NCBI GenBank assembly: GCA_026418675.1
Contig: JAOAAX010000003.1
Coordinates: 62,001-126,000, forward strand
Origin: Chthoniobacterales bacterium
GTDB lineage: Bacteria > Verrucomicrobiota > Verrucomicrobiia > Chthoniobacterales > DYNR01
Reading direction: 5' to 3'
DNA: 64,000 bases
In this document: piece after piece, positions 22,226-44,146 of the stretch
Layout of the letters: each line of letters starts with the position of its first letter
Numbering within the stretch: the first letter of the stretch is position 1
Position numbers and translations under genes: made by a program
Notes under the pieces: model-generated
Database searches by the model: none
What the model saw: only the letters and a program-made list of their open reading frames with translations
Told to the model about the DNA's origin: nothing

Positions 22226-22328
22226 ACGTAATGAGTTTAATTATTAATTACAAATCATAATAAAAGTAAGGAAATAAGAATAATTCAAAGTATTTTAATG
22301 TCACATTAATTATACATTAACCTTTTTG

Positions 22329-26708: not shown

Positions 26709-27527
26709 ATGAATCTGTATGAATTGTCTAAAAATATAAAATTTAAAATAATTCAAATGTCATATAATGCTAAAACTCCCCATCTTTCTTCTGCAATCTC
26801 AAGTGTCGAGTTATTAGTTGCTGCATATTGGAATTTTTTGAGAATTAATCCTAAAAATTTTAATGATGATTTGAGAGATAGATTTATTTTTAGCAAAGGT
26901 CACGCAGCCCCTGCCCTTTATGTAGTTTTAGCAAAACGAGGCTTTTTTTCAGAAGATCTACTAGAAAGTTTTGGAAAACCAGGTGGAACTTTACCTGAGC
27001 AACCTGCCCCAAATTGTGTGCCAGGTGTTGAGTTAGCAACTGGGTCGTTGGGGCATGGTTTACCTGTGGGCTGCGGTCTGGCTTTGGCAGCAAAAATTAA
27101 AGGATTGGATTATTTTACAATGGTTTTAATGAGTGATGGTGAATGTAATGAGGGTTCGGTTTGGGAGGCTGCAATGTTTGCCGCTGCTAGGGAACTTAAT
27201 AATTTGATTGTAGTCATTGATTTTAATAAGTGGCAAGCAACTGGACGAAGTGAAGAGATTATGGCATTAAGTCCTCTGCGAGAAAAGTGGGAATCCTTTG
27301 GATGGAGAGCTTGTGAGGTTGATGGCCACAACATTGAGGCTATAACAGAGGCCATGCATAAAGCACGAGAATTATCCAACAAACCCTTTGCAATAATTGC
27401 CCATACCGTTAAAGGAAAGGGAATTTCCTTTATGGAAGACGATAACAATTGGCATTATAGGATACCAAATGCCGATGAGGTAGAAAAAGCTCGGCGTGAA
27501 TTATTCCAGGAGAACATATTTGTATGA
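26709..27527 (+). CDS. Transketolase-like protein, N-terminal (TPP pyrimidine-binding partner) subunit
   Basis: A 272-residue protein equal to the N-terminal third of transketolase, as found in two-subunit transketolases. It has SSVELLVAAYWNF, SKGHAAPALYVVLAKRG, the ELATGSLGHGLPVG segment and the TPP/Mg motif SDGECNEGSVWEAAMFAA followed by VVIDFN (the usual GDG is SDG). It ends near residue 272 and the partner gene begins at a 4-base ATGA overlap. Split transketolases occur in surface-sugar loci of several bacteria, where they are thought to supply or modify carbon skeletons by ketol transfer. I infer that role here. Confidence 0.92.
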   Translation: MNLYELSKNIKFKIIQMSYNAKTPHLSSAISSVELLVAAYWNFLRINPKNFNDDLRDRFIFSKGHAAPALYVVLAKRGFFSEDLLESFGKPGGTLPEQPAPNCVPGVELATGSLGHGLPVGCGLALAAKIKGLDYFTMVLMSDGECNEGSVWEAAMFAAARELNNLIVVIDFNKWQATGRSEEIMALSPLREKWESFGWRACEVDGHNIEAITEAMHKARELSNKPFAIIAHTVKGKGISFMEDDNNWHYRIPNADEVEKARRELFQENIFV

Positions 27528-28447
27528 GAAATGCTTTTGCAAAAGAAGTTACATTATTAGCGAATCAAGATGAAAATATAATTTTATTAAGTGGTGATAT
27601 TGGCAATAAACTTTTTGATGAACTACGGAACTCTCATCCTAATCGGTTTTATAACTGTGGTGTTGCGGAAGCTAATATGATTGGGGTAGCTGCTGGACTT
27701 GCTATGTGCGGATTTCGCCCCATTTGCTATACGATTGCTCCTTTTTTAACTTATAGGGTAATAGAACAAATACGAGTAGATTTATGTTATCATTTTTTAT
27801 CCGTTCTACTGGTGGGAACCGGTGCTGGTTTGGCTTATGCATCTTTGGGACCAACTCACCATTCATGTGAAGAGGTAGGTATGCTTCGCTTACTGCCGGA
27901 TATCAGGATTTTTGCACCGGCAGATTCAATAGAATTGCGGGCAATTTTGAGATATTGTATTAACAAAGCCGGACCTAAGTATATGAGAATTGGTAAGAAA
28001 GGAGAGCCTGATGTGCATACCAAAGAGATAAAAATTTTAGAGGAGCCTACATCATTTCTTTTGCGCCAGGGAAAAGACGTTGCAATTCTTGCTTGCGGTT
28101 CAATTTTATCGGAGTGTTTAAATTCTGCTGAGTTGTTAGAAAAAAAAGGTTTGCAAGCTGAAATATGGAGTTGTCCCTGCATAAAACCTTTGGATGAAAA
28201 ATTATTAGATAAAGTTTTTAAAACATTCTCTACCGTTGTTACAGTGGAAGAGCATTCTTACCTAGGCGGATTTGGAAGTGCTGTTGCAGAATGGTTATGT
28301 AAAATGAAGATTGAAAAACCTAAATTAATAACCATAGGGACACCTGACGAATTCTATCATGAAATTGCTGATCAACATTTAGCACGAAAAAATTTAGGAA
28401 TAGATGCTGAAAGCATTACGTCAAAAATATTAAAAAACCTAAATTAA
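27524..28447 (+). CDS. Transketolase-like protein, C-terminal subunit
   Basis: A 307-residue partner subunit with the pyrimidine-binding and C-terminal domains. CGVAEANMIGVAAGLAMCG carries the catalytic glutamate that activates TPP. THHSCEEVGMLRLLPDI and VEEHSYLGGFGSAVAEW are the usual landmarks of the second and third domains. Length matches the small subunits of the DXS/transketolase type. The ATG overlaps the stop of the N-terminal subunit. The two are clearly one enzyme. It is followed by 123 bases of AT-rich DNA, so transcription may restart before the HAD gene. Confidence 0.92.
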   Translation: MRNAFAKEVTLLANQDENIILLSGDIGNKLFDELRNSHPNRFYNCGVAEANMIGVAAGLAMCGFRPICYTIAPFLTYRVIEQIRVDLCYHFLSVLLVGTGAGLAYASLGPTHHSCEEVGMLRLLPDIRIFAPADSIELRAILRYCINKAGPKYMRIGKKGEPDVHTKEIKILEEPTSFLLRQGKDVAILACGSILSECLNSAELLEKKGLQAEIWSCPCIKPLDEKLLDKVFKTFSTVVTVEEHSYLGGFGSAVAEWLCKMKIEKPKLITIGTPDEFYHEIADQHLARKNLGIDAESITSKILKNLN

Positions 28448-28570
28448 AAATTTATTTTAATTAAAAGAATAAAAATTTTAAAAATTATTTTTTTGAATTT
28501 TACTTATTTATTAAAATATTTTTAATAAAAAGCAATCCTGGTAATAGATCATAAGCTTTTTTAAAAGCAG

Positions 28571-29161
28571 ATGATAATCGGTGTGGATTTAGATAACACT
28601 ATTATAAGTTTTGATTCAATTTTTTTCAAGGTGGCATATGAGGAAGGATTAATATCTAATGAAATTCCCAAGAAAAAAAATGTCGTAAGAGACGAATTAA
28701 GGCGTAGGGGATTAGAAAAAGAATGGATAAGATTACAGGGGATCGTTTATGGCAAGAGAATCATTGAAGCTGAAGTTTTTGAAGGTTTTGAGGAATTTTG
28801 TGAAGAGGCTTGCGGTAGAGGACATCGTCTTGTTATTATTAGCCACAAAACGCGATTTCCTTTTATAGGTGATAAAGTTGATTTACATCAATCAGCTCGA
28901 AATTGGATATGTGATAAGCTATTTTATAAAAAGGGCTTAATTCAATTATCTGATGTTTATTTTGAGCTTACAAAAGCAGAAAAAATAAATAGAATTTGTA
29001 ATGTCGGGTGTGAATTTTTTATTGATGATTTACCTGAAATTTTAGAGGATCAAGCTTTTCCGGTGAATATAAAAAAAATCCTTTTCGACTCTGAAAGAAG
29101 ATTTAAAAAAACATATGCTGTTGTTAACACCTGGAGTGAGGTTCTGCAATATATAAAATAA
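28571..29161 (+). CDS. HAD-superfamily phosphatase-like protein
   Basis: A 196-residue HAD hydrolase. The nucleophile motif is GVDLDNTIISFD at the N-terminus (two aspartates of DLDNT). The lysine/threonine region is VIISHKTRFPF, and FFIDDLPEIL carries the acidic pair of motif IV. The cap is a short helical insert. In glycan loci such proteins often remove a phosphate from a sugar phosphate, as GmhB does in heptose synthesis; this is a guess from context. The sequence is too generic for a substrate. It lies 133 bases upstream of the kinase-like gene. Confidence 0.8.
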   Translation: MIIGVDLDNTIISFDSIFFKVAYEEGLISNEIPKKKNVVRDELRRRGLEKEWIRLQGIVYGKRIIEAEVFEGFEEFCEEACGRGHRLVIISHKTRFPFIGDKVDLHQSARNWICDKLFYKKGLIQLSDVYFELTKAEKINRICNVGCEFFIDDLPEILEDQAFPVNIKKILFDSERRFKKTYAVVNTWSEVLQYIK

Positions 29162-29294
29162 CAACTAAATAAAAATTTAAATAATATAGATTTATAATAT
29201 GCTATGAAAGTTCTATTTTAAATTGTGATGCGTTATAAAGTTAATTTATAAAAATTATTTTTTGAACAAATAACACTGCGGTATTTAATATAAT

Positions 29295-30272
29295 TTGAAA
29301 AACGAAACCACAGATGATGACGTCAATGAAATTGCCAAATTTTTATTGGGATCAGATAACTATGAAATTTATCCGCTTCATTCCGGAGGAAATAACAGCA
29401 TATTTATTGCAAAAAGAGAAAAAATAAAGATAGTAATTAAAAAATACTTTCGTGATTTGAGAGATAAACGCGATCGTTATGATACGGAAAAAAAATTTTA
29501 TCTACTCGAACTAGAAAATACACCAAAAAGTCTTTTTTGGAATGATCAAAAAAAAATTGCTGCATTTGAATACATTGAAGGAAATATACCTAATGAGGTT
29601 ACCTCCGATGATATTCAAAACATTGTAAAATGGATATGTTATATTCAAAAAAAACGGGATTCTTTTGTGGCAAAAGAAATATCATTGGCTTCAGATGCAT
29701 GTTTGTCAATTCGTGATCACATATTTTCGCTTAAAAGAAGAATTGACAAACTACTGAATGGGAATTTAAAACACAAAGGTTTCATGGATTTTTTTCAAAA
29801 TGAGCTTTACCCGAAAGCTCAAAAAATTATTAATTTTGTAGAAAAAAGCTTTTCTAGCAAACTTGATTACAAAATAGTCGAAAATTATCAAATTTTGTCT
29901 CCTTCAGACTTTGGTTATCACAATATTCTTAAAGGCAAAGATAACAAGTTATGGTTTTTTGATTTTGAATATTCTGGGTGGGATGATCCCGCTAAGTTAA
30001 TTTGTGATTTTTTTTGTCAGCCGCAGGTTTCTGTCCCTTTAGGGTTTTCAGAGAATTTTATTAATGCCCTCGTTGAATTTACTGGGGATAAGGAAATTGC
30101 CAACCGTTTTGAAATTTTGTATCCTTTACATCAAGTTAAGTGGGCCTGTATTTTGTTAAACGAATTTTCGCATTCTGGAGCTGCAAGAAGGAAATTTGCT
30201 AAAAAAATTATAAATTTGGATAATCAATTGACTAAAGCAAAAAAATTGCTTTGTCAAATAAAAACATTTTAA
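29295..30272 (+). CDS. Aminoglycoside-phosphotransferase-fold small-molecule kinase
   Basis: A 325-residue protein of the APH/choline-kinase fold. The ATP-side loop is YPLHSGGNNSIFIAKR with IKIVIKKYF holding the lysine. LSPSDFGYHNILKGK is the catalytic Brenner-type motif (HxDxxxxN variant with Asp before Phe-Gly), and LWFFDFEYSGWDDPAKLICDF is the Mg-binding DxD region. Substrates of this fold include amino sugars, choline and hydroxyl groups on sugars. It starts at a TTG (29295); I saw no in-frame ATG giving a full fold. In this locus it may phosphorylate the sugar or a choline-like decoration. Confidence 0.82.
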   Translation: MKNETTDDDVNEIAKFLLGSDNYEIYPLHSGGNNSIFIAKREKIKIVIKKYFRDLRDKRDRYDTEKKFYLLELENTPKSLFWNDQKKIAAFEYIEGNIPNEVTSDDIQNIVKWICYIQKKRDSFVAKEISLASDACLSIRDHIFSLKRRIDKLLNGNLKHKGFMDFFQNELYPKAQKIINFVEKSFSSKLDYKIVENYQILSPSDFGYHNILKGKDNKLWFFDFEYSGWDDPAKLICDFFCQPQVSVPLGFSENFINALVEFTGDKEIANRFEILYPLHQVKWACILLNEFSHSGAARRKFAKKIINLDNQLTKAKKLLCQIKTF

Positions 30273-30302
30273 TTTCTATTTTTATTTTAATTTAAATTGA
30301 TT

Positions 30303-30968
30303 ATGGGTTGTTTAAAAAATTATATTACAAAATTACATCAATCAACAAAACGGGATTATCTCAAAAGAATGTGCGACTCCAAAGTTGAGTGCATGAAAAT
30401 TGCAAGGCAATATGGATATGACTATTGGGATGGAGATAGAAAATATGGCTATGGCGGATATTCTTATATTCCTGGTAGGTGGAAAAGTGTTGCTGAAAAT
30501 CTTATTAAAGATTACCAACTAGCAGATGGAATGAATATATTGGAAATTGGATGTGGTAAAGGTTTCTTATTGTATGAAATGCAATTATTAATGCCTTCTT
30601 TAAATCTTTATGGATTGGATATATCTGAATATGCCATTAAAAATGCACATCCTAAATTAAAAGCTACTTTTTTCGTAGGTAACGCTAATGATCTTCATAT
30701 TTTTAATGATAAAATGTTTAATTTAATAATTTCGATTAATACTTTACATAATTTACCATTACATGAAATTGAGAGATCACTTAATGAAATTGATAGGGTA
30801 GGGGATAAAGCATACATTGTGGTGGAAAGTTTTCGAAACGAACAGGAATTGTTCAATCTTCAATGTTGGGCTTTAACTGCAGAAAGTTTTTTTCGTCCGG
30901 AAACGTGGATTTATTTGTTTAATAAAAAAAGCATAAATATAGACTATGAATTTATATTTTTTGAATAA
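30303..30968 (+). CDS. Class I SAM-dependent methyltransferase
   Basis: A 221-residue Rossmann-fold methyltransferase. Motif I is NILEIGCGKGFLLYEM and motif II is LYGLDISEYAI. LIISINTLHNLPL is the usual motif IV stretch. The N-terminal about 75 residues are hydrophilic and rich in Tyr (DYWDGDRKYGYGGYSYIPGR), probably the substrate cap. I chose the ATG at 30303; a TTG lies two codons upstream. Placement among sugar genes suggests N- or O-methylation of the sugar. The substrate cannot be read from sequence. Confidence 0.85.
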   Translation: MGCLKNYITKLHQSTKRDYLKRMCDSKVECMKIARQYGYDYWDGDRKYGYGGYSYIPGRWKSVAENLIKDYQLADGMNILEIGCGKGFLLYEMQLLMPSLNLYGLDISEYAIKNAHPKLKATFFVGNANDLHIFNDKMFNLIISINTLHNLPLHEIERSLNEIDRVGDKAYIVVESFRNEQELFNLQCWALTAESFFRPETWIYLFNKKSINIDYEFIFFE

Positions 30969-30990
30969 AACTTAAATTAATAATTTTTAT

Positions 30991-31575
30991 ATGAAAATTG
31001 CATACTTAACAAATCAAAATGCAGATTTTAAATATTTAATACCTAATTTTATATCCTCACATAAAATTGAATGTGAAATTATTACTGAGAAAGTATCATT
31101 GGAAACACTTGTAAATTTGAAAATTGACTATATAATAAGTGATAGATTTAAATTTTTATTGACACCTGAAATTTGTAGATATTATGACGGGAGAGCTCTT
31201 AATTTACATGGTTCAATTTGCCCTAATTGTAGAGGCTATTATCCAATACTTTGGACAGTAATTGAAAAAAAGCCTATGGGTGGCACCATTTTTTATATTG
31301 ATGAAGGGATTGACACTGGTGATATATTACAACAATTTGAAATAGAATATACTGATAATGACACATTGAGAAGTTGCTGGATTAGAGTTCAGATGGGTAT
31401 GTATGAGGGATTGTTTAAGTATTGGAATGATTTTCTTAATTTAAAAGCTCCTAGAAAAAGGCAGGTTGGTTTTGGAACATTGCATTACAAAAAGGAATTT
31501 GAGAATGTCAAAGATTTACTAACAAATGGATGGGATACAAAGATAAAAGATATTTATAAATTACTAAACAAATAA
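30991..31575 (+). CDS. Formyltransferase of the methionyl-tRNA formyltransferase fold (sugar N-formylation)
   Basis: A 194-residue protein of the hydroxymethyl-/formyltransferase fold. The catalytic triad is present: Asn and His in LNLHGSICPN and Asp in DEGIDTGD, with the invariant GGTIFYID segment. It is shorter than methionyl-tRNA formyltransferase (about 310) and lacks its C-terminal OB domain. That suits the sugar N-formyltransferases of the Qui4N/Fuc3N type, which use N10-formyl-tetrahydrofolate. In this locus it would formylate the amino group put on by one of the DegT enzymes; that is inference. It ends in a KKRQV- and DLLTNGW-containing tail. Confidence 0.85.
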   Translation: MKIAYLTNQNADFKYLIPNFISSHKIECEIITEKVSLETLVNLKIDYIISDRFKFLLTPEICRYYDGRALNLHGSICPNCRGYYPILWTVIEKKPMGGTIFYIDEGIDTGDILQQFEIEYTDNDTLRSCWIRVQMGMYEGLFKYWNDFLNLKAPRKRQVGFGTLHYKKEFENVKDLLTNGWDTKIKDIYKLLNK

Positions 31576-32197
31576 AAAAGATAACAATCCTTTAAAAAAA
31601 CTATATTTATAGATAGTTTAATAAATAATATTCGATTTCTTTTGTTTAAATAAAAAATTTAAAGATTTAAAGTGGTGTGACTTAATTGAATAAATAAATT
31701 ACTCTGAAAAATCTACAAAAAAATTCACGTTTTTTAATCCATAAAAAATATAACGATGTTATATAACAAAAGATAATATGTTTAAGAAATGATTTATTAA
31801 TTCCCCACACAAGCAAATAGGAATTAGAGAATGATAATTTTAGTTTTCCTTGATACAATGAAAAAATGTTATTATAAAGAATTATGTTTCAAAAAAAAGA
31901 TTTTTTTTTGCGAAATTATTTCATACATCAATATGGCATTTAGCTGATTCTTTATCTATGGACGTAATTTTTTTGAAACTATTGATTGTCCATATCATCT
32001 AAAAAAGTAATTTTTTTGTAACTACTAATAGAATGTTATGATAAACCAAAAAATATGAATTTATCTTGCAAAATTGGTTTAAAAAAATAGTCAAATTTTT
32101 ATGTTTTCTATAATAGAATAAAAAGAATAAAAAAATAAAAAAATAAATTTTATAAATTGTGATTTATAAATTTATAAATTTATAAATTAATTCTTAT
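31576..32197. other. Very AT-rich gap inside the glycan locus
   Basis: About 620 bases with no credible coding frame, roughly one-fifth G+C by eye. It contains a near-identical 18-base direct repeat (31964-31981 and 32007-32024, 17 of 18 matching) around a 7-bp inverted repeat TATGGAC/GTCCATA (31957-31963, 31988-31994), and a run of palindromic units before the next gene. It marks a join between two parts of the sugar locus and may hold a promoter. Confidence 0.5.
32162..32188. repeat. Tandem 8-bp ATTTATAA repeat
   Basis: Three head-to-tail copies of ATTTATAA end just upstream of the ATG of the GT-B-like gene. The unit is nearly palindromic, so the whole tract could form hairpins or be a mutable spacer. 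No function is evident beyond its closeness to the start codon. Confidence 0.5.
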
Positions 32198-33211
32198 ATG
32201 CATTTAATTGATTATATCAGACATGTTAAAAAAAAAGATGAAATTCTCATTATTAGCCCTACAGCAATAGGTGAAGCTTTTGTTGTTGTTTTACTCTTGG
32301 AAGAAGTTTATAATAAATATAACAGAAATATTCATTTAATTTTACCGCCACATCAAACAGACATTTTAAAACTTATAAATGTTCCACGACAATATCTGTT
32401 TTGTGGAACATGCCATTATAAACTTATTGCATCTTTTTACAAGGATTATAAAATCTTGAATATCGATAATGGTGATAATATAGTAGTTGTATATCCTGAT
32501 TACTTTTTTAGTTATCCCTTTGATTTATTTAAGTCATTTATAGATAGTAATGGAATTTTTGGTTTAGATTATGTAAAATCTATTAAAAGAGTCTTGGGTT
32601 TAAATTTAAACTGTTTATTGACTAAACCAAAAAATAATTTAAATGATATTAGTTTAAAATATTTAGAAAAATTAAATTTAAAAAAAGGACAATATGTACT
32701 TTTTCAAGTAGGAAGTAATTCAAGAAAAGCTGTCCCTTATGAGATTTTTTTTAAAATTGCATTATATTTTTTTAATAAAGGATATGATATAATAATAAAT
32801 AGAGCAAATTCTTTATTTCAACCTAAAGAGAGATTTCCAATTGCGAAATATGAGACATCTTTCTCAATATATCATGCTAATTTGTTAGCGCTAAATGCAA
32901 GTTATGTTATATCTACTGGCTCAGGTATACTATGTTCTTTTATATATTTAAATAATCTTTCAACAATTGATACTAAATTAGTTCATATTGGAACCAATTA
33001 TAGAACATTAAGTCATATACCTCCTATTATATTTGAAAAAGTTTCTCCTTTTGTAAATCATAAAAATTGCATGCCTGAAATTATTACTAATAAAAAAAAT
33101 CTCTATGAATGGTATTTGCCACTTGAGTTAAATAAAGATGAAAGGGAAAAATTTATTAATGATGTTTTAACTTTTGATAAAAAATCTTTTTTTTACATGG
33201 GACCTGTTTAA
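32198..33211 (+). CDS. Unrecognised GT-B-like protein, possible GT9-related
   Basis: A 337-residue protein I cannot assign firmly. A Rossmann-like opening (DEILIISPTAIGEAFVVVLLLEE) resembles the first strand and helix of GT9-type glycosyltransferases, and a mid-protein GQYVLFQVGSNSRKAVPYE resembles the start of their second domain. Near the C-terminus, SIYHANLLALNASYVISTGSG is followed by ILCSFIYLNN, like the donor-binding region. No DXD motif is evident. The gene is AT-rich and lies between an intergenic repeat tract and the class III aminotransferase. A sugar-transfer role is inferred; a lipid-linked sugar modifier is an alternative. Confidence 0.65.
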   Translation: MHLIDYIRHVKKKDEILIISPTAIGEAFVVVLLLEEVYNKYNRNIHLILPPHQTDILKLINVPRQYLFCGTCHYKLIASFYKDYKILNIDNGDNIVVVYPDYFFSYPFDLFKSFIDSNGIFGLDYVKSIKRVLGLNLNCLLTKPKNNLNDISLKYLEKLNLKKGQYVLFQVGSNSRKAVPYEIFFKIALYFFNKGYDIIINRANSLFQPKERFPIAKYETSFSIYHANLLALNASYVISTGSGILCSFIYLNNLSTIDTKLVHIGTNYRTLSHIPPIIFEKVSPFVNHKNCMPEIITNKKNLYEWYLPLELNKDEREKFINDVLTFDKKSFFYMGPV

Positions 33212-33236
33212 TACTAAAATAGTATCAATATTGAAT

Positions 33237-34541
33237 ATGATTATGGATATAAACGATAAAATTTTAAGGACTTTTCCTAATTCTAAAAATGAGTTAATAA
33301 GGATAATTTTTGGAAAAAATGAAATGTTATATTTAAATGATAAAAATTATTATATTGACTTAACAGGTGGTGGCACAAGTTTCAATACTGTTGGTTATTC
33401 AAATCGTAGAATTATAAATAAGATGGTTAATAAAGCCCTACTAATTTCACATGCAGACTTTAAAACTACATTAGATGAAGATAGAGAAAAATTAGCTGAA
33501 TTACTTTTGAAGGATAACAAAATTTCCAATGAATTTGTTTATTTTGCTGGAAACTCTGGTGGCGAAGGTATTGAGGCAGCTATGAAATTAAGTTATCAAA
33601 CCCATTTAGAGCTTGGATACTCTAAAAGAAATATTTTTATTTCAAGAATGGAGTCATATCATGGATCATCAACTGATGCTATTGCTATTAGTGATAGAAA
33701 AAATTTATTAATATATAAAGATTTATTTCCTTGTAATCGCTATAAGATTTCAGATCATTATTTTATTAAGAATAGGCGAATTGGAGAAACTAAGGAAGAA
33801 TATACAAAAAGATGTCTTGATGAATTTGAAAAAAAAATATTAGAACTTGGTCCTGAAAAGGTTTGTGCTTTCATAGGGGAAACAATTATGGGTGGACTAC
33901 AAGGTTTTATAGAACCCTGTGATGGTTACTGGAAAGGTATTAGAGATATATGTGACAAATATGGCATACACTTAATTCTAGATGAAGTTATCTGTGGTTG
34001 TGGTGTTACAGGAAATTATTATTGTATTGAGTATGATGGTATTACACCAGACTTTTTAGTTATATCAAAGGGTCTAACAAGTGGTTATTTTCCTTTAAAT
34101 GCAGTATTGCTTACAAGGAAGACTTATGAAGCAATAAGTAATGGAAGTGGAAGAACCAATCATTCTACAACTTTTCAAGGACATTCAATTGGTTGTGCCG
34201 TAGCTTTGGAAGTTACAAAAATAGTTAAGAGGCATATTTTTTTAAAAAGGGTTCAAAAATTAGGGGATCTTGTTAGACAGAAAATAGAAAGTTATCTAAA
34301 AGGACACCCTAATTTTATAGCAGTTCATGGAAGGGGTTTAAGGATTTCAATAGAGTATTCTTTTAATAATATGATTAGTTTTGCTGATTATTTTAGGAAT
34401 TTAATGAAACAAAAATATAAAATCCTTTTAGACGTGAAATGGCATAGAATATTATTGAGTCCGCCTTTAACGATTTCTGAAGATAAACTTTTATCTAGTG
34501 TTGAAAAAATTTGTTTAGAGTTTTTAAATTACAAAGAATGA
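33237..34541 (+). CDS. Class III PLP aminotransferase
   Basis: A 434-residue PLP enzyme of the glutamate-1-semialdehyde/omega-amino aminotransferase class. It has FAGNSGGEGIEAAMKLSYQ, SYHGSSTDAIAI, the aspartate in LILDEVICGCG and the lysine motif VISKGLTSGYFPLNAV. I chose the ATG at 33237 because it follows the previous stop at 33211 and a normal N-terminus begins here; the frame is open further upstream inside the previous gene. Unlike the DegT enzymes it can aminate a terminal aldehyde or ketone of a small skeleton. It overlaps the next gene by four bases (ATGA). Role within the locus is inferred. Confidence 0.9.
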   Translation: MIMDINDKILRTFPNSKNELIRIIFGKNEMLYLNDKNYYIDLTGGGTSFNTVGYSNRRIINKMVNKALLISHADFKTTLDEDREKLAELLLKDNKISNEFVYFAGNSGGEGIEAAMKLSYQTHLELGYSKRNIFISRMESYHGSSTDAIAISDRKNLLIYKDLFPCNRYKISDHYFIKNRRIGETKEEYTKRCLDEFEKKILELGPEKVCAFIGETIMGGLQGFIEPCDGYWKGIRDICDKYGIHLILDEVICGCGVTGNYYCIEYDGITPDFLVISKGLTSGYFPLNAVLLTRKTYEAISNGSGRTNHSTTFQGHSIGCAVALEVTKIVKRHIFLKRVQKLGDLVRQKIESYLKGHPNFIAVHGRGLRISIEYSFNNMISFADYFRNLMKQKYKILLDVKWHRILLSPPLTISEDKLLSSVEKICLEFLNYKE

Positions 34542-34984
34542 AAGTTAGCAACATATTGCACATAGAGATGTTAAAAAATCAGGCAATAATTAATCTTACA
34601 AAAAGGTCAAGAATTTGTTATCATGAATCTTTAGAAGATTCAATTCATGAAATGCTGATATGCTTGAATAAAGATACTTATATAAAACCTCATCAACATA
34701 TAAATAAAATTGAATCGGGAATTTGTATTGATGGAAATGCTATTTTATATATTTTCGATGATTATGGAAAAGTAAAAGAAAAATATTATCTAAGTTCTAA
34801 TTTTGAAGAAAAATCAATATTCTATTATCGACTAGAAGATTCTATTTTTCATACAATTATTGTAGAAACAGATAATTTTATTTTTTTTGAAATCACACAA
34901 GGTCCTTATAAAAAAGAGGATACAAAATTTGCTTTATGGGCTCCCGATACACTTGAAGAATTAAAAAAACGGCTATTATCTTAA
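34538..34984 (+). CDS. WbuC-like cupin protein
   Basis: A 148-residue protein similar to the WbuC cupin-fold family found in O-antigen loci. The metal-site pattern is IKPHQHINKIESG with a later E/Q (FFEITQGPY), and RICYHESLEDSIHEML and ILYIFDDYG match the family layout. WbuC-type proteins are named from an E. coli O-antigen cluster, and their exact activity is not settled. I chose the ATG at 34538, which overlaps the aminotransferase stop (ATGA). The stop lies one base before the ATG of the giant glycosyltransferase, so coupling is likely. Confidence 0.78.
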   Translation: MKVSNILHIEMLKNQAIINLTKRSRICYHESLEDSIHEMLICLNKDTYIKPHQHINKIESGICIDGNAILYIFDDYGKVKEKYYLSSNFEEKSIFYYRLEDSIFHTIIVETDNFIFFEITQGPYKKEDTKFALWAPDTLEELKKRLLS

Positions 34985-34985
34985 T

Positions 34986-37900
34986 ATGTTAGGTGATAAT
35001 TCTTTAACAATTACCTTACTGACAACAAAGTTTTCTGATTACTTAATTGAATCAATAAAATCAACTATTATTGCAGCAAAAAATGCTGGTCTGACAAAAT
35101 TATATTTAATATTAAATGCAGGTGAGGCAAGTAATTATCTATTTAAGAAGATAAATAATGTATTAAAAATAAGTGATATCTTTTCTGTTGAAATACCTGA
35201 TAAAAATAAGATATTAAGAATTTATGAAGCATGGAACTATTGTCGTCAAATATGTAGAACGAAATATTTACATATCATGCATGATGATGATATTCTGAGT
35301 AAATATTTTTACACCGAGTTAATTTCTTTGTCGGAGAAATATAAAAATTTTGAAATATATGCAACTTCTAGAGCTGCAATTGGTTCAAAGAATTATGTTG
35401 TAATTCACCCTTATGGAAAATGGAATAAAGCCTGGGAAATATTTGCAATGTTTAATCCATTTGCCGCAAGTGAAGTAATTTTTGATTGTAACGCAATTCC
35501 CGATTTTCAAGAGGATTTGAATTATTGTGGAGATTGGAGAGCTTGGCTTACTGCTGCATTGAATGATAAAATTGCTACTACAAATGAAGTTTTGCATTTC
35601 TATAGATTTCATAAATCTAGTACTCGTGAGCAAAATCAAAGGCAATGCCGAGATATAAAAGAAATTTATGATACTTTAGTTTGGGTTAACAATACTATTC
35701 AGAAAGTTAAGGGATATTATTTTGATTTTTCAAGATATACTTCTGCGTTAGAAGAACCTTTTCGTGAAGCCGTAGCAAAAGCTGAAAAAGAAAAAGATTC
35801 ATTAATTGCAAATAAGTTATTTAATTTAATTCGATTACCCGGATTCCCTTTTCGGTTACAATTGCTTTGTTATGAGAAATTAACAAAATTAGCTTTAGAA
35901 ATTGATTATAAACCTGATGAATTATTTTTAAATACAACTAATACTAAGTATAATCCCCCTGATATAGTAATAAAAATTTCTGATGAAACATCTGTGTCGG
36001 ATTTAGATTGCTTGAGTTTGTTTAAAGAACTTCCGAGTAGTTTAAAAAAGAGAATTTTGTTTTATTCGGATGAACCTGGCTACGGAGGGGTAGGACATTA
36101 TGTAGACAGTTTGCTGAGGGGTGTAATTAAGCGAGGACATGAGGTGTGGAGTGCTCAACCAGAGTGGAAGAGTCCGATGTTGGATGCTCAGAGAGAATTA
36201 GGTGTTAAGCATATATGGACTGGTTTTAATCCTGTTGAAGAGTTCGGGCGCTCTCTTACTGATTTAGAAGATGCAAGACGGGTGATTAGCGAAGTTCAAC
36301 CCGATGTAATTTTTTTTGTTGACTGCTGCCCGATTTCCAATTTGGCCGCCAAGGAAGTTGCATTTCAAAGTGGAGTTCCTTTTGTATCCTCCTGCCATAT
36401 AGATGCTCCTTATTTGGCTGAAAGGTTTCAAAAATATTTGGCTGATGTTCATCGGCATTTTTTATATGCAACCGAGGCTATTACTGTTTCAGAAAGTGCA
36501 TTAATGACTTTGAGGAATCACTTTGGTCTGTCCCAATATAAAGGAAAGGTAATCTATAATGGCCGCCCTGAAAAGTATTTTGCTGATGTTGATCAGTCGT
36601 CCCGAGAAACTGTTTTAAAAGAGTTAAATTTACCGTCTGAGGCGGTTGTTTGTTTTACGGCTGCAAGGATAATACATGAAAAAGGATTTGATTTACAGAT
36701 TGAAGCGATTTCTGAATTAGCAAGGGGAGGCAATTTGGGTAATTTGCATTTTGTTTGGGCCGGAGAGGGTAATTTTCTTAAGGAACTGAAGGATATTGTT
36801 GTTAGTAAAGGGCTCCAGCAGCGTGTGAAGCTTCTAGGGTATAGGTGGGATTTAGTGAAGTGGTTGGAGGCATGTGATATTTTTGTTTTGCCTTCACGTT
36901 TGGAAGCAATGCCCTTGTGTGTAATGGAAGCGATGGCTAAAGGAAAACCAGTAGTCGCAAGTGCGGTTGCAGGGATTCCAGAGGAATTGGGAGAGGCAGG
37001 TATTCTCCTTCCTGATCCTAATAAAGACTCAAAAGCAACTGTGAAGGAGTTGGTGCGGGTTTTACCAGTTCTTGCTAATGATATACAGATGCGGCGGCAG
37101 CTAGGGCAAGCGGCCAGGTGTAGAGCATTAAAACTTTTTCGGGAGGAGGAAATGTGGCGGCAGACAATTCCTCTGATCGAAGAGGCTGCCAGTGAAGGAC
37201 CAAATTGGGTAGCTTGTAGGCGCTTTTGTGCATTAGCAAGAGTGGACCACAAGGTGAAGGAGATTCTTGTTGAGTATCGGAAAAAACTTGAAGTTGTACA
37301 AGAGATTCCGAAGGAATTGGAAATCCCTGAATTTGGAGAGGATGAGATTCAGGAGATTCGTAGTTTGATTGAGAGTTGGTCAAAAGATCCATCTAACCAA
37401 GAAATTGTAAATCAATTACGTGTCCTTAGGCAGAAAGTAGCCTCGTTCTTGGTAAATCAAAAGGATGAAATTGCTCCATTGTTGTTGCAAAAGAGCTTAG
37501 GGCAGATATACCGTCTAATATTGAAATCAGGCTTTGCTGAGGTTCCTGAAACGGAAGAGGAAAAAGGGGTGCGAAAATATCTAGCTGGTGGTTTCGATGA
37601 TCAAGGGAATTTCCATTTTCTTCGGCTTGCAGCTGCGATGTTGTTCGATTTGGCGCACCGTTATCCGGTGATGGGAGCATTAGAACTAATTCCTAATTGG
37701 TTCATAAAAGATTATCTGGAGTGGTTATTTACAGGTCCAAGTGTGCTTACTATGGAAAATGAGGCTGATAGGTATGTCCGACACCTAGAATCGAGTTTAG
37801 AAGAGGTGTTGTGGAGATTAGATAAGCCTGAAAGTCTTTCAATTGACCCTTTAGAGATTGGAAAATGTGTAACTTCAAAGTTAAACTTATTTTACGCCTA

Positions 37901-40900
37901 CCCAAGTAGGCATTCAAATCGAGAGTTAATGAAGCTTCGTGCTTTATTAATTGAAAAAACTCTTCAACTTGCTGGAGCGAAACTTGACGGGCCTCAAATT
38001 AGTTTTGAACCTCAAATAAAACCTCGTAAAGGGAATCGCTGGAGGATTGGTGTTTTAAATGCCCACTTTGGGCACCAAACTGAAACTTATGTTACTCTTC
38101 CTATTCTTCATTTACCTGAAGAACGGTTCGAAGTATTACTTTTTGCAGGGATGGCAAATCCAGATTCTGTAGAGCAATATTGTAAAAGACTGTCAGATAT
38201 TTTTGTCGTTTTGCCGGAAGGGATAAGCAACCAAGTAGAGATGATTCGACGAGCGGAATTAGATGCATTAATTATAGGAACGAATGTTACAGCAGTTACA
38301 AATTTTGTAAGTTTAATCGCGGCGCATCGCATGGCCCCCCTTCAAATTTTGTCACATTGTTCACCAACTACGAGTGGATTTCGCAACGTGGATGGTTTTC
38401 TTACTGGAGTACTGGCATGGGATCCAGACTGGAGTAAGAATGAATTTCATGAACGATTAATTGTTTTGGATGGACCTCCGGTTTGTTTAGATTATCAAGT
38501 AGAAGTTGGTAAGGGGAGTAATAGCTTATGCCGCAGCGAGTTGGGGCTATCAGATAATAAAATCTTGTTTTTTAATGCAGCTAGTTGCTTTAAGATTCCA
38601 ATGGATTTAATTCGTATATGGGCAAAACTTTTGCGTGAAGTCCCCGAAAGCCAATTAGCATTGATGCCATACAATCCAAATTGGTCACATAATTTTCCTG
38701 TTTGGAATTTTCAAAATACATTTAATCAAGTTCTTGAAGAGGAAGGTATAGAATCATCACGTGTAAAGTTTCTCAAGTCTGTTTATTCGAGGCAAGAATT
38801 GAAACCATATGTAGCATTAGCTGATATTTATTTGGATACATTTCCTTTTGTTGGTAGCATTTCCACTGTAGATCCTTTAGAGCTTGGTGTCCCTGTCGTA
38901 GCGTGTGACGGTATGACAACTCGCTCTAGATGTTCAGGTGCACAGATGCGAGCCTTGGGTTTGGGAGAATGGGTTGCTCGAGATGAAGAAGAATATTTTG
39001 AAATTGCTTTTGAATTAGCAAGGAATAAAGAACTCCGATTAAATCTATCTCAAAAAATTAAAAGTGCAATGGCAGCTCGGCCCAAATTTCTTGACCCTGA
39101 ATATTATGGGCAACAACTTGGTGAACTACTTGAAATACTCTTAACGAAAGGGTGGGATGCTTTGCCGAAACCGAGAGCTTATGAAGAGAGAAGAAAACCT
39201 AGAATTAGGAAAGGGTGGTGGAATTCTTTCAAAAGTGGTGAAGAGATAGAAAACAATGTCAAGAATTTTTGTGAGACGGTTGACAAATTTAACGAAATAA
39301 CAAAAAAAACAATGGCAGTTGAAATCGCTTTTGAGAAGGAAGAGACAAAACCGATTGCAGAAGCAACTGACAAAAAAGAATCTGAAGTTAAATATACAGA
39401 GTTACAGGGAGAATTTGTTGAAGAAAAATCCGTTGAGGAACTTTTGAAATTGGCACATGAAGCCTTGAAAGAATCACGTCTTATTCAAGCAGAAGATCTT
39501 GCAAGAATTGTTGTCCAGCGGGAGCCAGAAAATGCTGAAGCTTGGGCAATTCTTGGACAACTTGCTCGCGATAGTGGTGATTTAGAGTTTGCAGCTGATC
39601 TTTTTCAACAAGCTCATTTGCTTAAAACTGAAGAATATTCTTTTGCATTGGATTATGCTAAAACATTGCATATGCAACAAAAGCATAAAGAAGCAGTGGA
39701 TGCTTTCTCTCGCACTTTAAAGATTCGAAGCACATCTGAAGCTCATCTTGGATTAGCTATTTCTTTAGAGGCACTACAAAATTATTCAGAAGCTGAGAAG
39801 GAATTTGAATTGGCTATTAAGCTTGCTGAAACAGAAAACGAGAAACACAATGCGAGACTTTTATTTTCTCAATTCTTGTCGCAGCAGGGGAGAATGGATG
39901 AAGCAATTTCATACGCGCACGAAGCCTTAGATTATGAACCAAACTCTCTTGATTCCTATCTTTGCCTTGCAAGAATCTATCTAAAAGATCAAAAATTAAC
40001 TCAAGCTTTGCAAATACTTTCTCGGGCAGAAAAGAAATTTCCAAATTCTTTCGAACCTTTATACGAGCAAGCGATAATTTATCTATCACTTTCTCGAGCA
40101 GAAGAAGCAGTTGATATTTTACGCAGAGCTACAACAATCGAAACTCAAAATGGCATGCTATGGTTTCAATTGGGTTATGCGCTACAAGTTTTGGGAAGAA
40201 AAACAGAAGCATTAAAAGCTTATAACAAAGCTGAATTGTCAGGCTTAAAAACATTTGAGCTTTTTTTAAATTCTGGAGCGATTTTGAAAGAGAAGGAAAA
40301 TTACTTCGAAGCAGCCAGATGCTTTACGAAGGCTATTGAATTGAATCCAAATTCGAGTATCGCGCTTAACAATCTTGGCACTGTGTGTATTCACATGGGG
40401 ATGACAACAGAGGCAATAGAATGTTTTAACAAGGCTTTGGAACTCGATCCCAATCTTGAACATGCTCATTCAAATCTTGGTCAGTTGTTGCACTTGAGTG
40501 GGCGAGCAAAAGAAGCTTTACCTCATTATTATAAAGCTTTGGAAATTAATCCAAATTTGCCCGAAGCAATCCATTCGTATTTATTATGTACGTTATACCA
40601 AGAGGACTGGACTCCTGAAAAAATTTTTGAGGAACATCGAAAATATACTCAAAATCTCGGAGTTAATTCTAAAAAGCCAACGAATCGAAAACCTATAAAA
40701 CGTAAGACCCTTGCATCAAATGAACGGGTTCGCATTGCTTATGTTTCGCCTGATTTTTGCGGTCATCCAGTTTCTTACTTTGTAGAACCATTGTTGGCAA
40801 ATCATAATAAAAAAACATTCGAAGTTTTTGCACTATCGGATGTTCGAAAAAGTGATGAAATCACGGAGAGGCTCCGAAAACTTCCTGAGCATTGGCATGC

Positions 40901-41810
40901 TACTTCTCAGCTTAATGCAAGTGACTTTTTACAACTTTTAGATTCTTTAGAGATTGATATTTTAGTTGAACTTGCTGGTCATACAAGTCATAATCGTCTT
41001 CGGGATTTGTATTATCAACCAGTTCCAATACAAATTTCTTATCTTGGATATCCAGCAACAACGGCTTGTCCTGGCATTCAATTCCGAATAACGGATATGT
41101 GGGCAGACCCGCCAGGTGAAACCGAGCACCTTTATACAGAGCGTCTTATAAGACTTTCTCGATGTGCATGGTGTTATACACCTCATCCTGCTTCTCCCAG
41201 CATAAATCGAACTCCACCACATGTTCGGAATGGATATATTACATTTGGCTGTTTCAATAACCTAGCTAAAATCAATCCACCATTGCTAGAGTGTTGGTTA
41301 AAAATTCTGCAGGCAGTTCCAGAATCGCATCTTTTTTTGAAGTCAAAGCACTTAGCTGACGAGGGGGTGAAAAAGTTCTATTTGGACTGGTTTACGTCCA
41401 AAGGCATATCTGATAAACGAATAAGGTTACTAAAATTTGAGCAAAAGACTGCTGATCATTTAAATCGTTATAACGAAGTTGATATAGCTTTAGATACATT
41501 TCCATATCAAGGAACAACTACAACTATTGAATCGTTGTGGATGGGTGTTCCTGTGGTGTCTCAATTTGGCTCAGAACATCGAAGCAGAGTTTCAGTAAGT
41601 CTTTTGAATGCAATTGGCCATACAGAGCTTCTAGCATCCAATCCCGACGAATACATTTCAAAGGTTATTGAGCTTGCTAATGACCCTTCTCAAATTCAAA
41701 ATTACCGTTCAACACTTCGTTCATGTCTTATTAATTCTCAGTTGGTTGATCGTCAAAGTTTCATTAATGCATTAGAAAAGGAATACTTAAATTTACTGGA
41801 ACAAAATTAA
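34986..41810 (+). CDS. Giant multidomain glycosyltransferase: GT2, GT4, GT41-like, TPR, GT41
   Basis: One uninterrupted frame of 2274 residues. Residues 1 to about 240 are a GT2-like domain (MHDDD near 98, CGDWRAWLTAAL). From about 354 a GT4 domain begins (FYSDEPGYGGVGHYVDSLLR) with the E-x7-E region PSRLEAMPLCVMEAMAKG near 636-655. A helical linker follows. Around 1015-1400 lies a divergent GT41-like domain (IGVLNAHFGHQ, FNAASCFKIP, LDTFPFVG) that lacks the GHT histidine. TPR repeats (about 1480-1870) lead into a standard GT41/SPINDLY domain (RIAYVSPDFCGHPVSYF, ELAGHT, LGYPATT, FNNLAKI, DTFPYQGTTTT) to the end. Composition changes from AT-rich to resident-like near nucleotide 36040, between the GT2 and GT4 parts. 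It could build a multi-sugar chain and transfer it, perhaps to protein. Confidence 0.92.
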   Translation: MLGDNSLTITLLTTKFSDYLIESIKSTIIAAKNAGLTKLYLILNAGEASNYLFKKINNVLKISDIFSVEIPDKNKILRIYEAWNYCRQICRTKYLHIMHDDDILSKYFYTELISLSEKYKNFEIYATSRAAIGSKNYVVIHPYGKWNKAWEIFAMFNPFAASEVIFDCNAIPDFQEDLNYCGDWRAWLTAALNDKIATTNEVLHFYRFHKSSTREQNQRQCRDIKEIYDTLVWVNNTIQKVKGYYFDFSRYTSALEEPFREAVAKAEKEKDSLIANKLFNLIRLPGFPFRLQLLCYEKLTKLALEIDYKPDELFLNTTNTKYNPPDIVIKISDETSVSDLDCLSLFKELPSSLKKRILFYSDEPGYGGVGHYVDSLLRGVIKRGHEVWSAQPEWKSPMLDAQRELGVKHIWTGFNPVEEFGRSLTDLEDARRVISEVQPDVIFFVDCCPISNLAAKEVAFQSGVPFVSSCHIDAPYLAERFQKYLADVHRHFLYATEAITVSESALMTLRNHFGLSQYKGKVIYNGRPEKYFADVDQSSRETVLKELNLPSEAVVCFTAARIIHEKGFDLQIEAISELARGGNLGNLHFVWAGEGNFLKELKDIVVSKGLQQRVKLLGYRWDLVKWLEACDIFVLPSRLEAMPLCVMEAMAKGKPVVASAVAGIPEELGEAGILLPDPNKDSKATVKELVRVLPVLANDIQMRRQLGQAARCRALKLFREEEMWRQTIPLIEEAASEGPNWVACRRFCALARVDHKVKEILVEYRKKLEVVQEIPKELEIPEFGEDEIQEIRSLIESWSKDPSNQEIVNQLRVLRQKVASFLVNQKDEIAPLLLQKSLGQIYRLILKSGFAEVPETEEEKGVRKYLAGGFDDQGNFHFLRLAAAMLFDLAHRYPVMGALELIPNWFIKDYLEWLFTGPSVLTMENEADRYVRHLESSLEEVLWRLDKPESLSIDPLEIGKCVTSKLNLFYAYPSRHSNRELMKLRALLIEKTLQLAGAKLDGPQISFEPQIKPRKGNRWRIGVLNAHFGHQTETYVTLPILHLPEERFEVLLFAGMANPDSVEQYCKRLSDIFVVLPEGISNQVEMIRRAELDALIIGTNVTAVTNFVSLIAAHRMAPLQILSHCSPTTSGFRNVDGFLTGVLAWDPDWSKNEFHERLIVLDGPPVCLDYQVEVGKGSNSLCRSELGLSDNKILFFNAASCFKIPMDLIRIWAKLLREVPESQLALMPYNPNWSHNFPVWNFQNTFNQVLEEEGIESSRVKFLKSVYSRQELKPYVALADIYLDTFPFVGSISTVDPLELGVPVVACDGMTTRSRCSGAQMRALGLGEWVARDEEEYFEIAFELARNKELRLNLSQKIKSAMAARPKFLDPEYYGQQLGELLEILLTKGWDALPKPRAYEERRKPRIRKGWWNSFKSGEEIENNVKNFCETVDKFNEITKKTMAVEIAFEKEETKPIAEATDKKESEVKYTELQGEFVEEKSVEELLKLAHEALKESRLIQAEDLARIVVQREPENAEAWAILGQLARDSGDLEFAADLFQQAHLLKTEEYSFALDYAKTLHMQQKHKEAVDAFSRTLKIRSTSEAHLGLAISLEALQNYSEAEKEFELAIKLAETENEKHNARLLFSQFLSQQGRMDEAISYAHEALDYEPNSLDSYLCLARIYLKDQKLTQALQILSRAEKKFPNSFEPLYEQAIIYLSLSRAEEAVDILRRATTIETQNGMLWFQLGYALQVLGRKTEALKAYNKAELSGLKTFELFLNSGAILKEKENYFEAARCFTKAIELNPNSSIALNNLGTVCIHMGMTTEAIECFNKALELDPNLEHAHSNLGQLLHLSGRAKEALPHYYKALEINPNLPEAIHSYLLCTLYQEDWTPEKIFEEHRKYTQNLGVNSKKPTNRKPIKRKTLASNERVRIAYVSPDFCGHPVSYFVEPLLANHNKKTFEVFALSDVRKSDEITERLRKLPEHWHATSQLNASDFLQLLDSLEIDILVELAGHTSHNRLRDLYYQPVPIQISYLGYPATTACPGIQFRITDMWADPPGETEHLYTERLIRLSRCAWCYTPHPASPSINRTPPHVRNGYITFGCFNNLAKINPPLLECWLKILQAVPESHLFLKSKHLADEGVKKFYLDWFTSKGISDKRIRLLKFEQKTADHLNRYNEVDIALDTFPYQGTTTTIESLWMGVPVVSQFGSEHRSRVSVSLLNAIGHTELLASNPDEYISKVIELANDPSQIQNYRSTLRSCLINSQLVDRQSFINALEKEYLNLLEQN

Positions 41811-41863: not shown

Positions 41864-44146
41864 TTGAACAGAGAAGAATCTGAACTGGTTTTTGCAGAGG
41901 AGTTATTAGAAAAGGGCAAATTTCAAGAAGCTGAGCAGAAACTAAGCACTTTTCTAAAGAGCAACCCGAATTGTGCTCACGGTTGGTATTTGTTAGGAAG
42001 AATCGCTACAGAAAACGGGCAGTTCGAAGCTGCAACAGATTTTTTAAGCCTTGCTACTCAACTCGAACCATCTAATGCAAATTACTACTATGCTCTTGCT
42101 CAAAACTTTTTTTGCTATGATCAATATCAACATGCTCTTTTGGCTTTAGATCGTGTTTTTTCATATGAACCATTCCACGTTGCAGGTAAACTTCTTCAAG
42201 CAAAAATATATCATAATCTGAAACAACCTCTGCGCGCTGAAAAAAACTATCAGAATTTACTTAAAATCAACATTACTTCCTACGAACAAGTTCGTGCTCT
42301 TGAGGAGTATGCTAATTTTTTATGCGCTTTAAATCAGCACCAGAAAGCTATTGATATTCTCAAAAAATATCTAAAAAATTTAAACTGTAATCAAGGATAT
42401 TTCAAACTTGTCTTAATCCTTTCACATCTACTAATTACAAATCAACAACTTGAAAAAGCTTATCATTATTGTAAGCTTGCTATTGAACTTGATCCAAGCA
42501 GTGCGATAGCACTTTATAACTATGCTTATGTAATTCACCATCTTGGCCGTTACCAAGAAGCTCTTCCAATATATGAAAGGGCAGAAAAAGCAGGATATCA
42601 TCATTCCGAGCTTTATTTAAATTTAGGGGTAATTCATAAGCTCAACAATAATTATCAGACGGCTATTGAATATTTTTACCGTGCTCTTCAGAAAAACCCG
42701 AATTCATTATCGGCAATCAACAACCTTGGTGCAGTTTGCAACGAAATCGGATTTGCTTCTGAAGCAATTGAATGCTATGAGCAGGCTATCAAAATAAATC
42801 CGAATCGAGCTGGCCCATACAATAATCTTGGTTCTATTCTTAAAGACACTGGTCGTGCTACGGAGGCAATACCTTATTATAAAAAAGCCCTTGAGCTTGA
42901 ACCGAACAACGTAGAGTTTATCAATAACTATCTTTTCTCTACTCTCTATTTGAACATTAATTCAGAAAAGATTTTTGCTGAGCACAAATCTCTTGCACCA
43001 CGCATATCTAAACAAGTTAAGAAGCTTTCTCCTATTCGAGTTCCTTCAAAGAAGAAGCTACCAATACGGATCGCCTACCTTTCACCAGATTTCCGTGCTC
43101 ACCCAGTTGCGGCATTTCTTGAAGCACTGCTTAAGTATCATAACAGATCACAATTTCAGGTCTATGCTTATTGCGCTGCTCCATGTTCTGATAAAGTTAC
43201 CAATCATCTTCGTCAATTTCCAGACATCTGGCGGGATGTTTCTCAGTTGAAGGCGATTGAAACGGCTCGGCTAATTCATCGGGATCAAATTCATATTTTA
43301 ATTGAACTTGCTGGCCACACTGCGCATTCTCAGCTACCTGTCCTTGCTCATAGGCCTGCACCAATTCAAATATCTTACTTAGGCTATCCAGCAACAACGG
43401 GACTTCCTGAAACCGACTTCAAGATTACTGACAATCTTACTGATCCCTCTCCAACTGCTGATCAATTCTATACTGAGCGCCTACTACGACTGCCTTGTCC
43501 ACAATGGTGTTTTACTCCTCCCTTCGATTCTCCTCTTCCCTTAATTCATCCACCTGCCCTTTCCAAACATTTTATAACTTTTGCTTCGTTTAACAACCTC
43601 GCAAAAATCAATCTACCTCTTGTCGAAATATGGTCCAAAATTCTTCTTGCTATCCCCAATTCTAAACTTTTTCTGAAATATCGCACAATTATAGACAAAA
43701 ATGTCCAGAATTGGTTGCTCAATCAATTCTCGAATTTTAATATTTCTCCGGACCGTTTGATTCTTTCAGGGTTTACACCTAGTAAAAAAGATCACCTTGA
43801 AACTTACAATCGAGTTGATATAGCTCTTGATACTTTTCCTTACAACGGAACAACAACAACATTGGAAGCTCTTTGGATGGGAGTTCCTGTTATTACGCTT
43901 GCAGGTTCTGACCATCGTTCGCGCGTAGGACTAAGTATGCTTTCTTCGCTTCAACTTAATGACCTTATTGCCTATTCTCCAGAGGAATACATTCGAAAAG
44001 CTATTAATCTTGCCAGTGATCTTTCTCTCTTAAGTTCTTTCAAATCTTCACTTCGCAACACGCTACTAAAATCTACCCTTCTAAACCCGAAGGAATTTAT
44101 TGTTCATTTCGAAGAACTCCTTCTTTCGTTACTCCCAGAGTCATAA
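41864..44146 (+). CDS. TPR-GT41 (SPINDLY/OGT-like) glycosyltransferase
   Basis: A 760-residue relative of the last third of the preceding giant protein. Residues 1 to about 375 are tandem TPRs (AEELLEKGKFQEAEQKL, later NLGSILKDTGRATEAIPYYKKALEL). From about 400 a GT41 domain follows with RIAYLSPDFRAHPVAAFLEAL, ELAGHTAHSQL (catalytic-type histidine present), LGYPATT, FNNLAKI and DTFPYNGTTTT. GT41 enzymes move GlcNAc or another sugar to Ser/Thr or Asn, usually in the cytoplasm. No signal peptide is seen. The start is a TTG at 41864; I saw no better start. It follows the giant gene by 53 bases and probably arose by duplication of its end. Confidence 0.93.
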   Translation: MNREESELVFAEELLEKGKFQEAEQKLSTFLKSNPNCAHGWYLLGRIATENGQFEAATDFLSLATQLEPSNANYYYALAQNFFCYDQYQHALLALDRVFSYEPFHVAGKLLQAKIYHNLKQPLRAEKNYQNLLKINITSYEQVRALEEYANFLCALNQHQKAIDILKKYLKNLNCNQGYFKLVLILSHLLITNQQLEKAYHYCKLAIELDPSSAIALYNYAYVIHHLGRYQEALPIYERAEKAGYHHSELYLNLGVIHKLNNNYQTAIEYFYRALQKNPNSLSAINNLGAVCNEIGFASEAIECYEQAIKINPNRAGPYNNLGSILKDTGRATEAIPYYKKALELEPNNVEFINNYLFSTLYLNINSEKIFAEHKSLAPRISKQVKKLSPIRVPSKKKLPIRIAYLSPDFRAHPVAAFLEALLKYHNRSQFQVYAYCAAPCSDKVTNHLRQFPDIWRDVSQLKAIETARLIHRDQIHILIELAGHTAHSQLPVLAHRPAPIQISYLGYPATTGLPETDFKITDNLTDPSPTADQFYTERLLRLPCPQWCFTPPFDSPLPLIHPPALSKHFITFASFNNLAKINLPLVEIWSKILLAIPNSKLFLKYRTIIDKNVQNWLLNQFSNFNISPDRLILSGFTPSKKDHLETYNRVDIALDTFPYNGTTTTLEALWMGVPVITLAGSDHRSRVGLSMLSSLQLNDLIAYSPEEYIRKAINLASDLSLLSSFKSSLRNTLLKSTLLNPKEFIVHFEELLLSLLPES

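Follow-up and report, generated by a model that had tools for sequence, protein, structure and literature searches.

A single polypeptide with four glycosyltransferase-like modules from a Chthoniobacterales bacterium, a candidate flagellin-glycan synthase with an exchangeable front

Background

In bacteria, the synthesis of a protein glycan is usually shared among a number of separate enzymes and often takes place on a lipid carrier. Here we analyse a 64,000-nucleotide stretch of the genome of a Chthoniobacterales bacterium (contig JAOAAX010000003.1, positions 62,001 to 126,000; the whole stretch is called the window below), in which one gene, at 34986-41810, encodes a chain joining four glycosyltransferase (GT)-like modules, and we weigh the possibility that this chain is a soluble synthase of flagellin glycans.

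Among the described systems, FlmG of Caulobacter crescentus binds flagellin through its tetratricopeptide repeat (TPR) part and is sufficient for flagellin modification, by the account in PMC7591256. It resembles the chain studied here in being soluble and in placing a TPR part before a GT-B glycosyltransferase, and genes related to our TPR-GT41 tail adjoin flagellin genes; it differs in its length of 596 residues, its one GT and its need for pseudaminic acid, against four GT-like modules here and no match to NeuB. A review presents flagellin glycosylation that is independent of an oligosaccharyltransferase as the work of glycosyltransferases passing monosaccharides sequentially (PMC3958885). 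The HMW1C/NGT enzymes, as portrayed in PMC3983070, share with our chain a non-TPR helical domain ahead of a GT41 fold, solubility and the lack of a lipid carrier, but they serve a two-partner adhesin, whereas the module found here is nearer SPINDLY (SPY) in sequence, fused to other GTs and associated with flagellin. Two further systems can be compared by description only: A111/114R of Chlorovirus PBCV-1, which likewise has multiple GT domains in one chain serving one protein glycan but consists of three domains of about 300 residues, acts on a viral capsid N-glycan and has no TPR-GT41 tail in the description given by PMC7826918; and Fgt1/Fgt2/VioT of Pseudomonas syringae, dedicated genes for a flagellin trisaccharide that are separate there and one chain here (PMC3927599). 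Enzymes of the GT41 type, multi-domain GTs and GTs acting on flagellin are kinds already known; neither their combination in one chain nor the exchange of a front together with a sugar cassette was found in searches of open-licence PubMed Central (PMC) text.

Results and discussion

One open frame and its modules

The gene is a single ATG-initiated frame of 2274 codons on the plus strand, free of stops, and the same frame is recovered complete, with zero internal stops, in the whole-genome assembly (G000, contig C64), so that the uninterrupted frame proposed in an earlier note on this DNA is confirmed. The source genome measures 2.34 Mb and is 94% complete, and the contig bearing the gene is 155 kb long. 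From N- to C-terminus the 2274-residue product is arranged as follows:

34986..36047, plus strand: GT2-like front module, residues 1-354; hhalign match to a GT2 profile, D101, D102 and D183 invariant, GC 28.4%, no Pfam family
36048..37190, plus strand: GT4 module, residues 355-735, with R561, K566, E640 and E648 (Pfam; the four residues invariant over 8 sequences)
37191..38225, plus strand: helical domain, residues 736-1080; confident helical model, spanned in HMW1C/NGT alignments, no Pfam family
38226..39275, plus strand: GT41a, a divergent GT41, residues 1081-1430, with K1203 and D1296 (PF13844, 79.4 bits when scored alone, cut-off 25)
39444..40607, plus strand: TPR repeats, residues 1487-1874 (Pfam)
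40680..41807, plus strand: GT41b, a SPINDLY-like GT41, residues 1899-2274, with H1927, K2095, Y2174 and T2178 (phmmer to SPINDLY, 4.4e-85)

The four GT modules claimed by the earlier note do not all stand equally firm: GT4, GT41a and GT41b pass their Pfam cut-offs, and the GT2-like part is present on the weaker evidence of a profile comparison. For residues 1-345 a Pfam search gives no family at E<=1, a search of 1937 candidates about 190-600 residues long gives no relative at E<=1e-3, and a PDB sequence search gives nothing at E<=10. Aligned by hhalign to a GT2 profile made from six modules of relatives (the window sequence excluded), they score a probability of 94.4% (E 9.2e-8), whereas two control proteins from elsewhere in the window score 0.1% and 0.3%. 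The three aspartates are invariant across the 7 aligned modules. With a remote profile match and no Pfam match to go by, the module is a putative GT2 best named GT2-like. GT4 matches PF13692 (E 3.9e-32) and PF13439 (E 2.6e-17) over residues 366-711 and has an E-x7-E motif with upstream R and K, which we take to be the GT4 motif, its role presumably falling to the four residues listed above, kept in 8/8 sequences.

In GT41a, K1203 aligns with SPY K665, the active-site lysine of GT41, and the counterparts of K1203 and D1296 are invariant in all 18 aligned GT41a sequences. By sequence distance the module is nearer SPINDLY (1.7e-26) than NGT (1.6e-4). The model of the helical domain with GT41a aligns to HMW1C/NGT over 517-546 residues, and an HMW1C-like layout is predicted from it; some OGT rows likewise cover the helical part (2xgm_B, model 48-656).

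The tail combines a TPR part with a GT-B/GT41 part, the FlmG-type layout (Pfam), and holds the best stretch (residues 2082-2261) of the whole-protein match to PF13844, which reaches 236 bits. Compared with SPINDLY/OGT as described in PMC9715652, it retains the counterparts of H495, N661, K665 (here K2095), H728, Y744 and T748; it differs in having Pro in place of S496 and in its fusion to three other GT-like modules. The genome holds two more TPR-GT41 genes, one of 760 residues directly downstream in the window (listed below) and one of 661 residues elsewhere (L099:9175-11157, contig C109).

The architecture recurs among relatives

A search among long proteins gave 17 other relatives and a profile search 24 more, 41 in all. 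The helical-GT41a core is present in 28 of these and is fused to the TPR-GT41 tail in 11 of the 28, and the order GT2, GT4, core, tail is found in 5/41 (P0002-P0006), in some with extra modules in front. The architecture therefore marks a family and is not a one-off, and the earlier note, which knew of no named family with the four-part arrangement, is amended by this recurrence. What stands ahead of the core varies among GT2, GT4, GT11, LicD and methyltransferase modules, and frames of 1539-3085 residues remain open in 16 other core proteins.

Other arrangements are also seen. Methyltransferase domains are fused to the core in P0021, P0022 and P0030, and GT4 stands after the core, not before it, in P0025. 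An Arthrospira relative (L018:6893-14644) consists of GT4, methyltransferase, GT2, GT4 and helical-GT41a followed by two more partial copies of the helical domain; its genome has no flagellin match, and it is likely to serve another acceptor. Five loci (L022, L023, L025, L026, L028), from genomes labelled Desulfobacterota, have a stand-alone helical-GT41a gene of 842-898 residues, and these genomes have no flagellin match. The relative L017:8063-14225 shares the architecture of L012 and is divided into two overlapping frames; either the sequence contains an error or the gene is broken.

Apparent exchange of the front

Pairs of close relatives point to replacement of the first modules within the gene. 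Between P0012 and P0013 identity reaches 99% in GT41a and, across 807 tail residues, 97%, yet the stretches ahead of the helical domain align at chance level only (27% over 103 residues, score 32), the front of P0012 having two GT2 matches and that of P0013 no Pfam match. The change falls within the helical domain, which in these two proteins is itself only distantly related: in blocks of 20 residues, numbered from where the domain starts, those at 151 and 191 show 20% identity, those at 171 and 211 show 65-70%, and those from 231 onward show 90-100%. Another pair, P0005 and P0014, shows 93% identity in GT41a and 92% in the tail with unrelated fronts and a more gradual transition. P0002 and P0005 have everything from GT4 onward in common, and their identity drops from 90% to 20% immediately before GT4.

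It is at this second border, between GT2 and GT4, that the window gene changes composition. Its GC content steps from 28.1% to 39.4% at 36066 (log-likelihood ratio (LLR) 25.7, where 500 block shuffles gave at most 10.8), where the AT-rich block listed below stops, and third codon positions alone place the step at residue 336 (LLR 12.7, against a maximum of 10.2 in 300 shuffles). The GT2-like part thus carries the signature of recent replacement. Steps also occur in L009, L012 and L017, at residues 1280, 764 and 763, within the helical domain, which makes four of the seven genes tested; L013, L014 and L018 have no step beyond chance and count against the proposed exchange. Chimeras in metagenome assemblies may mimic pairs of the P0012/P0013 type, although frames that stay open over the joins and the 155-kb contig of the window make this less likely.

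Association with flagellin

The acceptor was approached through the distribution of flagellin genes. In a sample of 387 genomes of the phylum, 46 have a flagellin match. Counting as a core only a match that starts before model position 60 (this excludes G138, which starts at 123 and also has flagellin), flagellin is found in 10/10 core genomes and in 36/377 others (Fisher 2.2e-10). With any match at E<=1e-35 taken, the figure is 26 of 28 genomes, and an independent Pfam GT41 model gives flagellin in 25/31 GT41 genomes and 21/356 others (Fisher 2.5e-21). These values overstate independence, as nine of the ten core genomes come from one family.

Gene position is stronger evidence for the link than these counts of co-occurrence. 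Among the matches listed, the flagellin gene lies 5-22 kb from the core gene in 6/10 core genomes, lies 385 kb away in one and is not on the core contig in three, the window's genome included. Within the order of the window genome, flagellin genes adjoin TPR-GT41 genes in G006, G045 and G053. Of 25 public loci, 22 with a core were kept, L019 (a TPR-GT41 fragment), L030 (an unconvincing helical domain) and L033 (a GT4-like match only) being left out; the excluded L030 likewise carries a flagellin gene close to its GT41. Seven of the 22 hold a flagellin gene (L012, L013, L014, L016, L020, L021 and, from a betaproteobacterium, L027), and in all seven a TPR-GT41 is fused or nearby. Of 21 genomes traced from core or GT41 loci, 14 have flagellin, and a TPR-GT41 lies in the stretch for 10/13 core loci from flagellin genomes and 0/7 from flagellin-less ones, with stretch lengths that differ and make the absences soft. 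The window genome itself encodes two clear flagellins, in which Ser and Thr make up as much as 50% of mid-chain segments of 40 residues, and a third, weaker match that, judged by the neighbouring genes, looks like a hook-associated protein; a flagellin gene of this genome lies at L097:8460-9341.

Sugar genes and the AT-rich block

The sugar-activation genes that the earlier note saw beside the frame are real by Pfam and NCBIfam matches. The genes chosen between 19701 and 44146 all lie on one strand, the widest gap between them being 622 bp:

19701..21239, plus strand: HldE-like nucleotidyltransferase and PfkB-type kinase (Pfam; NCBIfam below equivalog cut-off)
21263-22225, plus strand: sugar epimerase-like gene (NCBIfam, below equivalog cut-off)
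22326-23360, plus strand: Zn alcohol dehydrogenase-like gene (NCBIfam, below equivalog cut-off)
23423-24424, plus strand: sugar dehydratase-like gene (NCBIfam, below equivalog cut-off)
24408..26704, plus strand: two sugar aminotransferase-like genes (NCBIfam PseC-type, below cut-off)
26709..28447, plus strand: transketolase, split over two genes (NCBIfam)
28571-29161, plus strand: HAD-like gene (Pfam, below cut-off)
29295-30272, plus strand: choline-kinase-like gene (Pfam, below cut-off)
30297-30968, plus strand: methyltransferase (Pfam)
30991-31575, plus strand: formyltransferase (Pfam)
33174..34984, plus strand: class III aminotransferase-like gene, in this interval together with the cupin of the next row (NCBIfam)
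34511-34984, plus strand: WbuC-family cupin (NCBIfam, above its cut-off)
41864..44146, plus strand: second TPR-GT41 gene, 760 residues (46% identity to the tail, E 3.5e-151)
28350..36050, no strand: AT-rich block, GC 26.6%, with sugar genes and the GT2-like module, ending at the GT2/GT4 border (three-segment fit of 15-48 kb)

The 622 bp at 31576-32197, which sit centrally in the sugar cluster, are very AT-rich and have no called gene, and a frame of 337 residues at 32198-33211, with a GC content of 24% and inside the AT-rich block, matches no Pfam family at E<=1. The upstream genes likely make the sugar donors for the 2274-residue chain. No NeuB (PF03102) match was found in the 94% complete genome, with control genomes positive in 9/14, and therefore the sugar is probably not pseudaminic acid.

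Proposed function and alternatives

The data show directly the single frame, its modules (the GT2-like one less securely), their recurrence, the link of the family to flagellin genes, and fronts that differ where the cores nearly match; the enzyme activities, flagellin as the acceptor in the window genome, the sequence in which sugars are added and a cytoplasmic site of glycosylation are inferred. We consider it somewhat better than an even chance that the product of the gene is a soluble synthase of flagellin glycans and that its front modules are now and then replaced through recombination inside the gene, just ahead of GT4 or within the helical domain, so that a new first module could bring its sugar genes along. 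The TPR-GT41 tail would hold flagellin and place the first sugar, and GT41a, GT4 and the GT2-like module would extend the chain with further sugars, their donors supplied by the upstream HldE-like, epimerase/dehydratase-like, aminotransferase-like, formyl- and methyltransferase genes, all of this ahead of flagellin export. The earlier note supposed that the chain could build a multi-sugar structure and pass it to the TPR-GT41 end. Nothing we found supports such a hand-over as a final step; by analogy with FlmG, which binds flagellin by its TPR part and is enough for modification, a role of that end in docking the protein and beginning the glycan is more likely. The same note's suggestion of transfer onto protein fares better, a protein being the likely acceptor and flagellin now the candidate. 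A fuller proposal, which we hold tentatively and at somewhat less than even chances, is that of a single-chain assembly line in which recombination at two recurrent borders, just before GT4 or within the helical domain, occasionally replaces the front of the gene, each incoming first module arriving with its own sugar-gene cassette and the flagellin-handling tail remaining flagellin-bound and unchanged.

Several observations weigh against a flagellin-glycan synthase of this kind. The two clear flagellins of the window genome lie on contigs other than that of the 2274-residue gene, and among the genes examined in 19.7-44 kb none was called flagellar. Flagellin is absent from 6/31 GT41 genomes, among the genomes of the window's order G012 and G051 have a TPR-GT41 and no flagellin match, and 7 of the 21 genomes reached through loci, including those of Arthrospira and Desulfonema, lack flagellin; the helical-GT41a core is therefore not specific to flagellin. 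These absences suit an acceptor that is another surface protein or a polysaccharide, the association then reflecting only motile, sugar-rich lineages. We regard this as unlikely, since lineage alone does not suffice to explain close flagellin linkage in 6/10 genomes (among the matches listed) and 7/22 loci, one of them betaproteobacterial. Within the chain, two donor-contact side chains are missing from GT41a, where other residues stand at the positions of SPY N661 and T748, and a His matching H495 is kept in only 2/18 aligned sequences; the AlphaFold model of the divergent GT2-like part is poor (mean pLDDT 49.7), with no confident fold. Together with the split frame of L017, the lost side chains and the divergent front might suggest a decayed chain in which one or more modules are inactive relics, a reading that we judge very improbable given the invariance of the K1203 and D1296 counterparts and of the GT4 R, K, E and E, and the long frames kept open in so many other core proteins.

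The main rival keeps flagellin as acceptor and divides the labour differently: helical-GT41a would add the first sugar in the manner of HMW1C, GT4 and GT2 would extend it, and the tail would add a separate sugar or only dock the protein. It owes this place to HMW1C itself, which makes both protein-sugar and sugar-sugar bonds according to PMC3983070. The proximity of GT41a to SPINDLY rather than NGT, the OGT rows that span the helical part as well, and the TPR-GT41 that accompanies flagellin genes in 7/7 loci all argue against it, and we think it rather unlikely, if a little less so than a different acceptor.

If the proposed flagellin-glycan synthase is real, docking, priming and extension would be united in one soluble polypeptide, and a protein glycan would be programmable by the choice of modules, a flagellin-sugar counterpart of module swapping in polyketides. 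P0012 and P0013, with a common core and different fronts, would then constitute a natural experiment in which the glycans should differ in a predictable part. Motile bacteria would be able to re-coat their flagella in one step, by exchanging part of a single gene, which would explain how flagellar glycans could become diverse quickly.
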